Assembly (NCBI GenBank): GCA_021730945.1
Contig: JAKFYH010000006.1
Span: forward strand, 1 to 64,000
Origin: Acidobacteriota bacterium
GTDB lineage: Bacteria > Acidobacteriota > Vicinamibacteria > Vicinamibacterales > UBA2999
Direction: 5' to 3'
DNA length: 64,000 bases
Part shown: positions 54 to 5,638 of the stretch, piece by piece
Numbering within the stretch: position 1 is the stretch's first letter
Layout of the letters: each line of letters begins with the position of its first letter
Position numbers and translations under genes: made by a program
The notes under the pieces: model-generated
The model's input: the letters and a program-made list of their open reading frames with translations, nothing else
What the model was told of the DNA's origin: nothing
The model's database searches: none

Positions 54-3000
54 CTACCAGGTCACGTCGACGCCAAGGCGAATGATGCGGCCCTGGAGAA
101 TCACGGAAGGCTGCTTGTAAGTAGCGGCGCCAAACTGCACGGTCGACACCGACGAGTAGTCGTCCGAGTTGAGCGCGTTGAACAGGTCCACCTTCGGGGT
201 CATGCGGAACGCCCCGAACTCGAAGCGCTTACTCATGGAAAAGTCCACCTGGTTGATGCGCGGAGTGTACTCGGTCTCCGGCGCCACCAGCGGCACCTGG
301 ATGTTGGCGACGCCGCTGGCCGCCAGTTCCGGCAGCACCAGCGCGCCCGGCGTGCACGGGCCGGTGCAGGTGGCCGCGTAGCGGGTGGTCGAGGTGATCT
401 GCCAGAAGGTGGCCTGGCCGTTGGGACGGTCGAAGCCCGTGCCGGCCGTGAAGCCGCCATAGGCCTGTGCCGCCGAACCGGTCAGGTAGCCGTTCAGGCT
501 CTGCCACGAACCGCTGACGGTGAGGCCGAAGAACGGCAGCGGGTAGACCACCGTGGCCTTGAACTGCTTCTGCCACGGAATGCCGCTCTTCGACTGGTCG
601 CAGTAGAGCGACCGGTTCGGGTCGCTCACCGCCGACGCGCACACGTCGTTCAGCGAGCGCTCGAGGTTGAAGCCGCCGAAGGCGCGTACGCCGCCGCCCA
701 GGCGCGCGTTGAAGTTGACGTCGAGGCCGTTGTAGGTGCGCTTCATGTCGTCGCTGGTGCTGTCGATATTCGCCACCTGGCCACGGAACTCCGGCTTGAT
801 CACCCACGCCGGCACGACCGTTCCGTCGAGCGGGCTCACCACGTTGAACTGGTTGTAACTGGCCGCGTTCAGCAGGGAGTTGCGGCGCATCGTGATGTTC
901 TTGAAGTCGATGCGATAGAACTCGGCCGCCAGCGAGAAGCCCGAGAACAGCTCACGGGTGATGCCGACGTTCATGGCCACCGAGTACGGCCGCTTGATGT
1001 CGGGGTCAAATTGCGCCAGCGAGCGGACGCCGAAGTTGGTCGGCAGGTTGGTGAAGTTGATTTCACAACCGGCGGTCAGGTAAACGCAACCGCGTTCACC
1101 CTGCGCGATGTCGTCGCCGTTGATGTCGTTCCACGGCAGCGTCGCGCTGGTGAGGGCGGTCGGGTTGTAGAGCTGGGCAAATCCGGTCGTCTGCGCGGTC
1201 ACGAACTTGTTGAAACCGGCGCGAATGGCGGTCTTGCCATTGCCCGAGATGTCATAGATCGCCGACACGCGGGGCGAGAAGTCCTTCCAGGTCGGGAAGG
1301 CGATGTCGCTGTAGGCCGGAACGTTGGCGAAGCGGCCGACCTGCGCCGACTGGCCGACGATGGTCTGCTTGTTGAGGTCGTAGCGCAGGCCGTAGTTCAG
1401 GGTCAGCCGGTCGAGGCTCCACGTGTCCTGGGCATAGATGCCAAAGTTGGTGTCGAGTGATTCTTCGACCCGCAGCGGCGTATTGAGCACCGTGACCTGG
1501 GTCGGCACGCCGTTGTTGTAGGTCTGGTAGAGGTCGGCATTGGCGTTGTTGTAGCGCGGGTACTTACCGAACTGGTGCGAGGCACCGACCTTGACGGTGT
1601 GCGAACCCGAGACGTACGACGCGGCCGCCTGGAAATTGTAGCGGTCCGGGTAGTTGCCGAGCTGGGCGCCCGACGCGTTCCACAGCAGCCCGGTGCTGGT
1701 GTCGTTCTTGCGCACGTTGCGGTACCACGCCTCGGTGCCGCGCTCGGCGAGCACACCGGGCTGGTAGAGATTGTCGTAGCGTTCGCGGTTGAACGACGTG
1801 CCGGCCTCGAGCAGCAGCTTCGACGACACCGTCGACGTCCACTTCAACGACCCGGTCGCGAAGATGGGCGTGTTCCAGACCACCGACGCCGTCCGCGGGT
1901 CGGTGTTGGCACCCATCGCGTGACCGCGCAGGCGCAGGGCGCGGTCCATGTAGACGGCGAACTTGTTGCGTTCTGACGCCTGCCAGGTGAGCCGCACGAT
2001 CGGATTGTTCATCTTCTCGTCAGAAATACCCTGGTCGCACTTGGCCGCACCCGAGCGGCACTGCTGGAAGCCCACCGGGAAGGGCACGTTCTCCGGTGTG
2101 TAGAACGTGTTGGCGATCGGCCGGTCGTACTTGGCGCGCCGGAATGCGCCGAAGAACCAGACCTTGTTCTTGACGATCGGGCCGCCCTGTTCGATGTTCC
2201 ACTCGTAGAAGTTGTCGATCTTGTCGACGGCGCTGACGCCGATCGCGCGCAGGTCGGCCGTCAGGTTGTCGCCCTGCCACTGCTTCGGCGACTTGGAGCC
2301 CTTGAACCCGCCGCGGAACTGGTTGCCACCATCCTTGGGAATCAGGTTCATGTTGACGCCGCCAGTCAGAGTCTCGGCGTTGCCGCCGGCGGTCTGGTAG
2401 ACGGCCTCCTGAGTCATCGCCTCGTTGTGGTAGCCCTGCACGGCGCCATCACCCATCAGGCCGTTGGTCATCATGCCGTCGACCAGCACCACGGTCTGGG
2501 CGCCGCCCTGGCCGCGCACGGCGAAGTAGGTCTGCTGCATCGCCCGCGAGCCGCCGACGTCGGGCACGTTCAGTGTCACGCCCACCACCAGCTGGCCGTA
2601 GCCCTGGATGGTCTTGGCGGTCGGCACGGCGTCGATCACGTCGCGCGACAGCACCTGCTGCTTGGCATTGCTCTGCACGTCGACCACCGGCGAGGCGCCG
2701 GAAACCGTGACCGACTCCTGCAGTGTCCCCACCGCCAGGTCGACATTGATCGTCGCCGTGAAGTTGCCTTGCAATTCCACGCCGTCGCGGATGACGGTGT
2801 TGAATCCGGGCAAGGTATAAGTGAGCCTGTAGGTGCCAGGCCGCAAGTCGCTAATGCGGTAGCTGCCGTTGGTATCGGTCACCGCGGACCGCACACCCTC
2901 AATCAGGGCCGGACTCGCCGCTTCCACCGTCACGCCCGGCATCACCGCGCCCGACGTGTCTTTCACCGTTCCCGTGAACACACTCTGTGCGCGCGCGATC

Positions 3001-3065
3001 GCGGGCACCAGGACGAGACTTGCCAGTACAAGGAACAACGTTCTTGCAACGAGACTTCGCGCCAT
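54..3065 (-). CDS. TonB-dependent receptor, Oar-like, with N-terminal carboxypeptidase-regulatory domain
   Basis: Outer-membrane active transporter of about 1003 residues. A signal peptide ends near residue 27 (...AIARA|Q). An Ig-like CarboxypepD_reg domain follows (about 30-110; GTVKDTSGAVMPGV), then a plug domain (about 130-250) and a long beta-barrel ending in an aromatic residue (...VDVTW). This Oar-type architecture is very common in Acidobacteriota; the substrate cannot be read from sequence. An in-frame ATG lies 21 nt upstream, but I chose 3065 because GGGGGAA sits 5 nt before it and the signal peptide starts there. The next minus-strand genes upstream encode secreted proteins; a 238-bp gap containing a terminator separates them. 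Confidence 0.93.
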   Translation of the reverse strand: MARSLVARTLFLVLASLVLVPAIARAQSVFTGTVKDTSGAVMPGVTVEAASPALIEGVRSAVTDTNGSYRISDLRPGTYRLTYTLPGFNTVIRDGVELQGNFTATINVDLAVGTLQESVTVSGASPVVDVQSNAKQQVLSRDVIDAVPTAKTIQGYGQLVVGVTLNVPDVGGSRAMQQTYFAVRGQGGAQTVVLVDGMMTNGLMGDGAVQGYHNEAMTQEAVYQTAGGNAETLTGGVNMNLIPKDGGNQFRGGFKGSKSPKQWQGDNLTADLRAIGVSAVDKIDNFYEWNIEQGGPIVKNKVWFFGAFRRAKYDRPIANTFYTPENVPFPVGFQQCRSGAAKCDQGISDEKMNNPIVRLTWQASERNKFAVYMDRALRLRGHAMGANTDPRTASVVWNTPIFATGSLKWTSTVSSKLLLEAGTSFNRERYDNLYQPGVLAERGTEAWYRNVRKNDTSTGLLWNASGAQLGNYPDRYNFQAAASYVSGSHTVKVGASHQFGKYPRYNNANADLYQTYNNGVPTQVTVLNTPLRVEESLDTNFGIYAQDTWSLDRLTLNYGLRYDLNKQTIVGQSAQVGRFANVPAYSDIAFPTWKDFSPRVSAIYDISGNGKTAIRAGFNKFVTAQTTGFAQLYNPTALTSATLPWNDINGDDIAQGERGCVYLTAGCEINFTNLPTNFGVRSLAQFDPDIKRPYSVAMNVGITRELFSGFSLAAEFYRIDFKNITMRRNSLLNAASYNQFNVVSPLDGTVVPAWVIKPEFRGQVANIDSTSDDMKRTYNGLDVNFNARLGGGVRAFGGFNLERSLNDVCASAVSDPNRSLYCDQSKSGIPWQKQFKATVVYPLPFFGLTVSGSWQSLNGYLTGSAAQAYGGFTAGTGFDRPNGQATFWQITSTTRYAATCTGPCTPGALVLPELAASGVANIQVPLVAPETEYTPRINQVDFSMSKRFEFGAFRMTPKVDLFNALNSDDYSSVSTVQFGAATYKQPSVILQGRIIRLGVDVTW

Positions 3066-3230
3066 CAGTTTCCCCCAAATCAGCAAGCGAGCTACCCGCC
3101 AACGCCCACCACGAACTCGATGCGGGCACTCCTCGCCAATAGCACAAGCACGTTAGCGTTGAGCTGGTTATCGCGTCAACGAGGAACTAAGGCGGGATGA
3201 TCCGGATATTTGGAATGCGATCGCGAAATG

Positions 3231-3303: not shown

Positions 3304-4203
3304 CTAGCGGCCGCCGGTGCTGGCCGCCTTCACGTTGACCTTGATGTAGACGGTCGACCAGCAGCACTGGAACCCGCCGCCGCCAACACCGGAGGTGTCG
3401 TTGCCCTCAACCCGGATCACGTACTCGCCAGGCATCGAGAAGGTGGCGGTGGTTGAGACCCGCTCCTTCTCAATCGTAGGCGTGGAGTCGGCAAAGGTCA
3501 CCGTGCCAGGTCCGCGAAACTTGGACAGGGTCGTGCTCACGCGTGGCCGGCGCGCGGGGCCGGCCGCTCCACCGGGGGGAGGGGCCGCGGCGCTGCCGCC
3601 GGTCGGCGTTTCCTCATGGCCGTCGTCGCTGAGCCAGAAGTTGATCGCGACCGGTTCGCCGACCGAGCCGGTCACGACCGGCGCGGTGGAGAGCGCCTTG
3701 GGCGGACCGGTCAGGGCCTCACCGTTTTCGGAGAACTTGAAGACCGGCGGCTTGTTGCCCATGGCGGCGTCCAGGTACGGCTCGATCTGGTAGCCCTTGG
3801 TCAGGCCGAAGGGCACCGAGACCGTGCGGCCGTTGGCGGTGAGGGTCCACGTGATCTTCTTGTCGCCGAAATCCTTGGGCACCCGGATGGTGGTGGTTCC
3901 CCAACCGCGGCCAACCACAAAGTGGGTCGGCTGCCCCTGGTCGGGGCCGCCGGGTTCAATCCGGTTCTCGGGACCGATCGGGATGTCGAGCGTCTGCTTC
4001 TTGTTGCGGTTGTAATAGCCGATGAGCAGCGTGTAGCTGCCATCGTCGTTCTGGTACCAGCCCTCAAATGCCGGATAGACGTTCTGCCCGGCGTCCTTGA
4101 GCGGCTCCATCACGAGCTGGCGGGCGGCCAGGTCCGTGCCGGCGGCCAGGCCCGCGACCGCCACGAGAGCGAGGGCCACGCGGCCCATGAATCGAATTGC
4201 CAT
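3304..4203 (-). CDS. Secreted protein of unknown function, partner of the copper monooxygenase
   Basis: 299 residues. A signal peptide covers about 1-25 (MAIRFMGRVALALVAVAGLA). The rest looks like beta-rich extracellular domains, with a Pro/Gly/Ala-rich linker near 215-235 (AAAPPPGGAAGPARR) and a C-terminal part reading like an Ig/PKD fold (GEYVIRVEGNDTSGVGGGGF, then a CC pair). A longer reading frame exists, but ATG 4203 has AGGAG 8 nt upstream and begins the signal peptide. It lies 73 bp downstream of the cytochrome/copper monooxygenase gene on the same strand, with a strong hairpin between, so a joint periplasmic role is plausible. I recognise no catalytic motif. Confidence 0.75.
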   Translation of the reverse strand: MAIRFMGRVALALVAVAGLAAGTDLAARQLVMEPLKDAGQNVYPAFEGWYQNDDGSYTLLIGYYNRNKKQTLDIPIGPENRIEPGGPDQGQPTHFVVGRGWGTTTIRVPKDFGDKKITWTLTANGRTVSVPFGLTKGYQIEPYLDAAMGNKPPVFKFSENGEALTGPPKALSTAPVVTGSVGEPVAINFWLSDDGHEETPTGGSAAAPPPGGAAGPARRPRVSTTLSKFRGPGTVTFADSTPTIEKERVSTTATFSMPGEYVIRVEGNDTSGVGGGGFQCCWSTVYIKVNVKAASTGGR

Positions 4204-4227
4204 CTGGAAAACTCCTGCGCAAACAGT

Positions 4228-4255
4228 GAGGGGGTGCCGTTGCTGGCACCCCCTC
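4228..4255 (-). other. Perfect 11-bp intercistronic hairpin
   Basis: GAGGGGGTGCC (4228-4238) and GGCACCCCCTC (4245-4255) are perfect inverted repeats around a 6-base loop. The hairpin lies between the stop of the monooxygenase gene (4277) and the ribosome site of the next gene (start 4203). Only a three-base T-run follows on the minus strand, so it may be an attenuator or an mRNA-processing or stability element rather than a full terminator. Confidence 0.5.
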
Positions 4256-4276
4256 GGTGAAAAACAGGCTACGGCG

Positions 4277-5638
4277 TTACTGCTGCTGCTGCCGTTCCGT
4301 GGTGGCAGCGAGCTTGGCCTTGCGGGCCTCGACTTCCTTGTTGAAGTCGTCATCGCCCATGTAGGTGATGTTGATCCAGGCGTGCGCCATCTCGTCCACG
4401 GTGCGGTCGCCCCAGCCGATCCACTGCGTCGGGTCGGGATTGCTCTTCTTGGCGGCGGTGTTGTCGTGCCACGCGGTGATCTTGATGATGGTGCCCTTCG
4501 GCAGCAGCGGCGCGTAGTCGTCGTCGAACACGTAGTTGTTCATCCAGTTGAACTCGAAGTTCGGGACGTAGCCGAGCACCTGCTGGGTGCCGTTGGGCAG
4601 GATGGCTTCGACCATCATCGCCTTGCCGCGCAGGTGCATGTGCGGCTGGAAGTTCTCGACGCGGCCGGCGCGGCGCATGACGTGGAAGTTCTGGCCGACG
4701 CTGATCGAGTTGGGCGCGATGTCGAGGTTGCGGTTGCCGCCGGTGACGCCGCTGTAAAGCGACAACGCCGTGCGGTACTTCGGCTCCTGGCCCTTCGGGT
4801 AGAAGTAGATGCCGAGTTCAACCTCGTCGGTGATGTCCTCGCCACCGGCGCTGTAGTGGATGTCCCAGCGGATCTTCGAGCCGGGCAGCATCAACTTGCC
4901 GGTGTTGGGACGCAGCAACTCGCCCTGCTTGTTGACGGCCCATTCCATGAACAGACCGGCGCCGCTGTCGGCATCGGCGTTAGTCAGCATGGCCTGGGCT
5001 TCCTTCTCGTCCTGCATCAGGTAGGCGAGGGCGTGGTGGGTGATCTTGCGGCCCTTCAGCGTGCCCGGGCGCATTTCGATGGCGCGCACCCAGCGGGGCT
5101 CGGTCAGCCCGGTCTCGACGACCGGCTTGTACCAGGCGTCCATGGCGACGGCCTTCTGCGTGTACTTCGGCGACTTGATGATGAGGTCGGGCGGACCGCC
5201 GAACTTGCTGGCGTAGTTCCAGCCGTTGCCATCGTCCCACTTCTTCGCCGCGGGCATGTCCTTGGGGTCGCCCTTCGGCGCACCGTTCGAGGCCCACTTC
5301 ACGATGGTGTCGATTTCCTTGTCGCTGAGCGACCGGTCATCCTTGTAGTGCTGGATGCCGACCGTCTTGTCGATGTGCCAGGGCGGCATGTTGCGCGAGG
5401 CGACGCGATCGCGAATCGAGCGGGCCCACGGACGGGCCTCTTCGAACGTGATCAGCGAAAACGGCGCAATCGAATCCGGACGGTGGCACGACTCGCACTT
5501 GTTCTGGAAAATCGGCGCGACGTCTTTTGTGAACGTCGGCGTTGCGGTCGTTTGAGCTGAAAGCGACGCCGGCAGAGCCAGAAGGCCCAACACGCCCACC
5601 GCCCCAGTCAATACCCGGCCGAAGATACCGTTAGCCAT
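4277..5638 (-). CDS. Cytochrome c / type II copper (PHM/DBM-like) monooxygenase fusion
   Basis: 453 residues, exported (signal peptide about 1-29). The N-terminal third is a cytochrome-like domain with one heme c site (CESCH, 48-52) and a possible axial Met at M84 (NMPPW). The rest resembles ascorbate-dependent type II copper monooxygenases. It has an HH pair (201-202) and H261 as likely CuH ligands, and HMH (333-335) plus M417 (DEMAH) as likely CuM ligands. Assigning these by analogy with peptidylglycine and dopamine monooxygenases is inference. The covalent heme suggests respiratory electrons could replace ascorbate. GGAGGGG lies 5 nt before the ATG. Substrate unknown. Confidence 0.8.
   Translation of the reverse strand: MANGIFGRVLTGAVGVLGLLALPASLSAQTTATPTFTKDVAPIFQNKCESCHRPDSIAPFSLITFEEARPWARSIRDRVASRNMPPWHIDKTVGIQHYKDDRSLSDKEIDTIVKWASNGAPKGDPKDMPAAKKWDDGNGWNYASKFGGPPDLIIKSPKYTQKAVAMDAWYKPVVETGLTEPRWVRAIEMRPGTLKGRKITHHALAYLMQDEKEAQAMLTNADADSGAGLFMEWAVNKQGELLRPNTGKLMLPGSKIRWDIHYSAGGEDITDEVELGIYFYPKGQEPKYRTALSLYSGVTGGNRNLDIAPNSISVGQNFHVMRRAGRVENFQPHMHLRGKAMMVEAILPNGTQQVLGYVPNFEFNWMNNYVFDDDYAPLLPKGTIIKITAWHDNTAAKKSNPDPTQWIGWGDRTVDEMAHAWINITYMGDDDFNKEVEARKAKLAATTERQQQQ

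Follow-up and report, generated by a model that had tools for sequence, protein, structure and literature searches.

The window analysed in this work (64,000 nucleotides, positions 1 to 64,000 of contig JAKFYH010000006.1 from an Acidobacteriota genome) carries a pair of neighbouring genes near its start, followed by a third gene of what is probably the same operon. The first gene of the pair (4277..5638) encodes P0001, an exported protein of 453 amino acids that was assigned as a heme c/type II copper monooxygenase fusion from its open reading frame, conservation, predicted fold and profiles. The second (3304..4203) encodes P0002, a secreted partner of 299 amino acids with two beta-sandwich domains, as judged from the open reading frame, profiles, a predicted model and the neighbourhood. 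Between them lies an intercistronic hairpin with an 11-bp perfect stem and a 6-nt loop (4228..4255, arms 4228-4238 and 4245-4255), located by repeat search and folding. The next gene of the probable operon (54..3086; Pfam and neighbourhood) encodes a TonB-dependent receptor with a carboxypeptidase-regulatory N-terminal domain, which we take to be Oar-like. All of these features, and those given below for the window, lie on the minus strand.

The N terminus of P0001 resembles a Sec signal on inspection by eye. It is followed by a CXXCH heme c attachment site (residues 48-52, 5483..5497) and, 36 residues after C48, by M84 of an MPPW motif (5387..5389), the candidate distal heme ligand. CXXCH, the export signal judged by eye and heme c assembly genes in the same cell (Ccm type; PF01578, two matches over the cut-off in the genome), which were used together as the marks of a c-type cytochrome, are all present. 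The PHM/DBM-like copper core extends over approximately residues 145-432 (4343..5206), as delimited by VIA-align against PHM and DBH. On the basis of conservation and profile alignments, the predicted CuH ligands are H201-H202 (5033..5038) and H261 (4856..4858), aligning with PHM H107/H108 and H172, and the predicted CuM ligands are H333 and H335 of the H333-M334-H335 stretch (4634..4642) together with M417 (4388..4390), aligning with PHM H242/H244 and M314. A preliminary description had read an exported chain with a heme site at 48-52 and copper ligands at 201-202, 261, 333, 335 and 417; the CXXCH motif is exact, the start is Sec-like, and each of these residues is in place.

P0001 itself fell below every Pfam cut-off, with no row for PF01082 or PF03712 and 18.7 bits for PF13442 (cut-off 27), and the curated NCBI families returned nothing except a CXXCH model far under its cut-off. 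PHM was absent from the PDB-chain sequence matches of P0001 and of profiles A1 and A2, and likewise from those of two more divergent paralogs. Within the 83 sequences of profile A2 (82 of 89 relatives plus the window protein), PF13442 was matched at E<=0.01 by 79 members, PF03712 by only five and PF01082 by one; a relative with 42% identity (G126:C6) scored above the PF03712 cut-off (26.1 versus 23 bits). One of the 83 members matched the QcrC model of NCBIfam. Kinship with hydrazine synthase was considered and rejected: the PDB match covered only the surroundings of CXXCH and a weak second stretch, and the NCBIfam model of the alpha subunit gave weak matches in seven of the 83 members (best E 0.0011).

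Structure prediction, which had been proposed as a check and which would have spoken against the assignment had it not yielded two copper sites, gave the PHM/DBH core. The AlphaFold model of P0001 (pLDDT 87.5, pTM 0.84) was submitted to Foldseek, and the top 31 rows (E 3.5e-10 to 4.0e-8) were without exception PHM or DBH. With VIA-align, the best structural match was DBH (Z 19.4, 258 residues, 3.1 Å), and PHM was matched with Z 18.7 over 244 residues (model span 145-431); the PHM/DBH range was Z 16-19, and the next fold, PNGase F, followed at Z 8.5. The sequence link between P0001 and PHM runs only via an intermediate profile (A4), with no direct match. A4 was assembled from the five proteins that a PF01082 search of 247 genomes from the phylum had yielded (three of them over the cut-off), and all five carry CXXCH...MPPW ahead of the copper core. 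Against rat PHM it scored E 4e-14, the HH, H, HxH and M positions being in register, and hhalign of A2 against A4 gave E 6e-73 across 378 columns. Counting along the printed alignment placed the ligands on PHM H107, H108, H172 and M314, in agreement with the mutant names in PDB titles. The copper ligands of DBH are named as His262, His263, His333, His412, His414 and Met487 in an excerpt of the literature on that enzyme (PMC4846438). The copper site is judged to be real because conservation, predicted fold and residue-level profile mapping all point to it, and P0001 belongs, by its ligands, its predicted fold and profiles joined through intermediates, to the type II copper monooxygenases (PHM/DBM superfamily).

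Lack of conservation of the ligand set among homologs had been named beforehand as the result that would speak against this assignment. The set was found to be conserved: none of the 83 aligned sequences departs from CXXCH, M84 or any of the six copper ligands. A more diverse set (103 ORF hits, cut to those of at least 350 aa and with repeats removed) held the full ligand set in 52 of 54 rows, equal to 48 of 50 distinct genes. The only two exceptions, L011 and L013, are divergent paralogs from the window's own genome from which the copper ligands are absent and in which the heme motif is kept. Q331, D392, N393, H419 and W421, which adjoin the ligands or belong to the core, each show conservation in 80 to 83 of the 83 members. 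A ligand motif arising by chance was ruled out by the invariance in 83/83, and a pseudogene or frameshift chimera by the retention of the fusion in the 83 sequences.

The association of the heme domain with the core was followed more widely in 35 loci of the phylum (five found with PF01082 and 30 with PF03712; a subset of all matches, in which three genes occur twice). CXXCH followed in one frame by MPPW or MPPF was present in 32 of the 35, and in 31 of these 32 heme-bearing loci the spacing from CXXCH to M equalled the 36 residues of the window. The three exceptions were L214 (CXXCH with MPAW), L241 (both motifs, CXXCH and MPPW, in an adjacent frame) and L223 (no CXXCH seen; its start looks frame-shifted by eye). 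Heme and copper core are thus kept together, and the fusion is, at the level of sequence motifs, the rule among the family members seen. In the window's own genome, 13 match rows correspond to 11 genes of the fusion family, two of the genes accounting for two rows each; PF03712 matches at E<=0.001 reached up to 11 per genome in the Acidobacteriota. Two of the 11 genes, the above-mentioned L011 (G000:C8:38685-39722) and L013 (G000:C11:49430-49942), lack the copper ligands; as both keep CXXCH and M84, they could be cytochrome-only derivatives. Spread on plasmids was rejected after a search of a plasmid collection, which gave no match.

The partner protein was examined in the same manner. P0002 remained under all Pfam cut-offs (best PKD, 14.8 of 23.5 bits), gave no NCBIfam row, and found nothing significant by sequence in the PDB (best E 0.051, ulvan lyase), in keeping with the earlier statement that the partner is without a known family. 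Its model (pLDDT 89.2) has two beta-sandwich domains, for which Foldseek returned only Ig-like and similarly generic matches; VIA gave Z values of up to 9.6, with rows mostly covering residues 149-297, a common arrangement. PF00801 is matched at E<=0.01 by 11 of the 73 sequences in profile A3 (72 of 77 relatives plus the window protein), P0002 not being among the 11; domain 2 thus appears PKD/Ig-like from profile matches and the predicted model. Domain 1 (approximately residues 36-140, 3784..4098, delimited by partner profile matches) is the part met by the f49 short partners, whose matches fall inside partner residues 19-178 and whose open frames measure 190-205 aa in nine of 11 cases. A vicinal cysteine pair, C280-C281 (3361..3366, each conserved in 72/73), lies in domain 2 in a glycine-rich GGGGFQCCW loop of this exported protein and might form a metal site or a vicinal disulfide.

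Co-occurrence of the two genes was counted from both sides. From the monooxygenase side, 80 named loci were inspected (the best 80 of 531 confirmed fusion relatives, and thus biased towards the window's subfamily); the partner gene adjoins the monooxygenase in 75 of them, the remainder being L105 and L123, both near contig ends, and L153, L154 and L171. From the partner side, 297 genomes of the phylum were searched and 105 matches were counted after removal of 12 second-piece rows. A monooxygenase was found beside 96 of these 105 matches: 71 had a listed monooxygenase within 1.5 kb, and 25 of the other 34 were recognised on reading the surrounding DNA. Of the partners in these 71 pairs, 50 are located downstream of the monooxygenase, 20 precede it and one is on the opposite strand; opposite-strand pairs amount to two of the 96 (G259 and L207). 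The pairing therefore outlives rearrangement. Nine matches lack a monooxygenase. Four of them (L180, L181, L202 and L206) are close to the end of a contig, the 1 kb between L179 and the end of its contig contains no monooxygenase, and the last four (L208-L211) proved weak or absent on re-test. In G221, monooxygenase and partner form a single ORF of 676 aa (L035/L062; L062 181-2211, G221:C79) from which the CC motif is absent. As this fused partner has no CC and the f49 short partners match residues 19-178 only, the cysteine pair is dispensable in some members. Pairwise distances of monooxygenase and partner were correlated (r 0.75, 72 pairs; maximum 0.12 in 1000 permutations), which partly reflects shared descent.

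The co-occurrence count suggested in the preliminary description shows a pairing that is near-obligate when seen from the partner side, with the single-ORF fusion in addition. In the window's genome, all five partners stand beside a monooxygenase and six of the 11 monooxygenase genes are without a partner, which makes the partner a trait of one subfamily. Per-genome counts in the phylum sample (monooxygenase in 66 of the 297 genomes versus partner in 35) are lower bounds, given that five and seven candidates, respectively, were scored per genome. The heme fusion is, judged from sequence, a large paralogous family with the partner tied to one subfamily, a case that the preliminary description understated. 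The same pair was also seen in L151, L155, L172 and L173, from MAGs labelled Gemmatimonadaceae, Gemmatimonadetes or Longimicrobiales, with the partner upstream in all four.

The hairpin reported between the two genes was reproduced as an exact inverted repeat, with a folding z-score of -3.4 and none of 200 shuffles as good. The window's stem also occurs in L094 and L095. In 15 hand-picked intergenic stretches (the window included), inspected by eye without shuffles, 11 strong stems were seen, eight of them differing in sequence; of the other four stretches, two had weaker stems and two short ones were stemless. Stems are followed by T-rich stretches in L097 and L137, and the window hairpin has no T-run. 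A special element was rejected on these grounds, and the hairpin looks like an ordinary intercistronic/attenuator stem; the plainest reading is that it adjusts the ratio of the two proteins by attenuation or by stabilising the message.

The wider gene order was compared among relatives. Two loci of the same genus, L085 and L087, show the order monooxygenase, partner, receptor, redoxin, second monooxygenase (the last with TPR repeats in L085); L086, also of this genus, has the same order minus the receptor, L084 of the same genus has monooxygenase, partner and redoxin, and the full five-gene order of L085 and L087 recurs in L097. In the window's genome, the end of contig C36 (G000, L080 11954-12540) carries, in fitting orientation, a redoxin and a monooxygenase with TPR repeats, the latter being seen in L008. 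As position 1 of the window is likewise the end of a contig, and C36 holds these two genes, the same operon was probably broken by assembly; the genome thus probably has an operon of the L085 type, split across contigs. Positions 1-54 of the window and the end of C36 both show GGGCGGGT-like repeats. All 75 named pairs were also screened for same-strand genes whose start lies no more than 700 bp downstream: eight pairs are followed by a PQQ dehydrogenase (L126, L129, L131, L133, L135, L140, L143 and L155; family assigned by Pfam in L131 only), four by a receptor and two by a redoxin. Because PQQ dehydrogenases are frequent in these genomes (18 loci hold one, 10 of them elsewhere) and a receptor follows the pair in only 4/75, these context links are weak.

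The active site was compared with that of PHM through the profile alignments. The position of PHM R240 is occupied by Q331 in 83/83 members, that of N316 by H419 in 82/83, that of Y318 by W421 in 80/83, and that of Q170 by D/E259 in 83/83. The set R240, N316 and Y318, which we take to be the peptide-carboxylate contacts of PHM, is hence absent from the 83 aligned sequences, and since conserved non-PHM residues stand at these positions, the substrate is probably not a peptide with a C-terminal (extended) glycine. P0001 shares the copper-core fold, as predicted, and the copper ligands with rat PHM and differs from it in the fused heme c domain; because its only cysteines are C48 and C51, both within CXXCH, it is also without the conserved disulfides of PHM. 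DBH, the best structural match, has the same core; an excerpt of PMC4846438 describes this core together with an Ig-like beta-sandwich DOMON, which recalls the P0001 core and its beta-sandwich partner. In DBH, however, the DOMON is carried on the same chain, whereas the chain of P0001 carries heme c and the beta-sandwich is a separate protein. L174-L178, the PF01082-positive proteins of the phylum, resemble P0001 in having CXXCH...MPPW and the copper core in one chain; unlike the window family, they have more cysteines, the Q of QVHY, and matches to PF01082 and PF03712, and the partner belongs to the window's subfamily in contrast to theirs.

We read the gene pair, with a probability of roughly 0.6, as a periplasmic type II (non-coupled binuclear) copper monooxygenase composed of a cytochrome c domain and a PHM/DBM-type core, together with a dedicated two-domain beta-sandwich partner. 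The heme would most likely act as a built-in electron donor in place of free ascorbate. As to heme loading, electron direction, substrate and partner role, we infer the following course. Both proteins would be exported by Sec, and heme would be attached by the cell's Ccm system. A respiratory donor in the periplasm or the membrane would then supply electrons to the heme c domain, which would pass them to CuH, and O2 and substrate would react at CuM (H333, H335, M417) to give the hydroxylated product and water. The partner may grip the substrate or steady the complex, as DOMON may in dopamine beta-hydroxylase. Substrate could enter through the TonB-dependent receptor encoded beside the pair, and in some relatives an alcohol product might be oxidised further by the adjoining PQQ dehydrogenase. 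A built-in cytochrome serving as electron relay, as proposed here, is known from cellobiose dehydrogenase and similar cytochrome-fused oxidoreductases; cellobiose dehydrogenase differs from P0001 in its unrelated catalytic fold and in its heme b.

The role of the heme could be read otherwise. Known PHM/DBM enzymes rely on ascorbate, and a working PHM-type core might likewise receive its electrons from a small diffusible reductant, as the animal enzymes do, with the heme sensing redox state or oxygen or tethering the protein to a membrane cytochrome complex. In the excerpt of PMC4846438, the DBH DOMON is placed in a heme- or sugar-binding class of domains, and no heme ligands are reported to have been found in it, so that electron transfer need not be the function of an added domain. 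The presence of CXXCH and M84 in 83/83 sequences, and of the domain in 32/35 loci, nevertheless fits an essential step better, and we consider this reading unlikely. Electrons might also flow in reverse, from the substrate through the heme into respiration, with the protein acting as a copper-dependent dehydrogenase or oxidase. Cytochrome c domains are often electron acceptors in such enzymes, and the PQQ dehydrogenase neighbours of eight of the 75 pairs suggest periplasmic oxidation at some loci. No ligand of the CuH and CuM set is missing, however, not even the CuM methionine, and in known enzymes this set activates O2, which leaves reverse flow quite improbable.

The proposal to which we give the least credence dispenses with catalysis: P0001 would be a copper-handling or structural protein binding copper and heme, with the CC pair of the partner taking part in a copper relay. 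It draws on the conservation of C280-C281 in 72/73 partners and on the two paralogs of the same genome that retain the heme motif after losing the copper ligands, by which non-catalytic members seem to exist. Against it stand the fused partner of L062 without CC, the f49 short partners that match residues 19-178 only, and the conservation (80 to 83 of 83 sequences) of Q331, D392, N393, H419 and W421, residues next to the ligands or within the core.

PHM and DBM are textbook animal enzymes in which two distant coppers are reduced by ascorbate, the former bringing peptide hormones to their final form and DBH making noradrenaline; how the electrons arrive and cross in these enzymes is a long-standing question. 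The heme c-fused PHM-type family described here is real and conserved, and is nameless in the libraries searched. Among the titles and abstract openings listed in literature searches, none describes the fusion, which is weak evidence of absence. At about even odds, the family constitutes an undescribed large bacterial class of PHM/DBM-type hydroxylases that would be hard-wired through heme c to the periplasmic respiratory chain and independent of ascorbate, with about ten genes in a genome like this one; one subfamily (five genes here) would form a two-protein system with a beta-sandwich subunit, and the paralogs would probably act on different substrates. In a natural fusion of heme and PHM, the heme spectrum would provide an optical reporter of electron entry within one chain, and a gene family with many members in the Acidobacteriota (11 genes in this genome) would gain a role.
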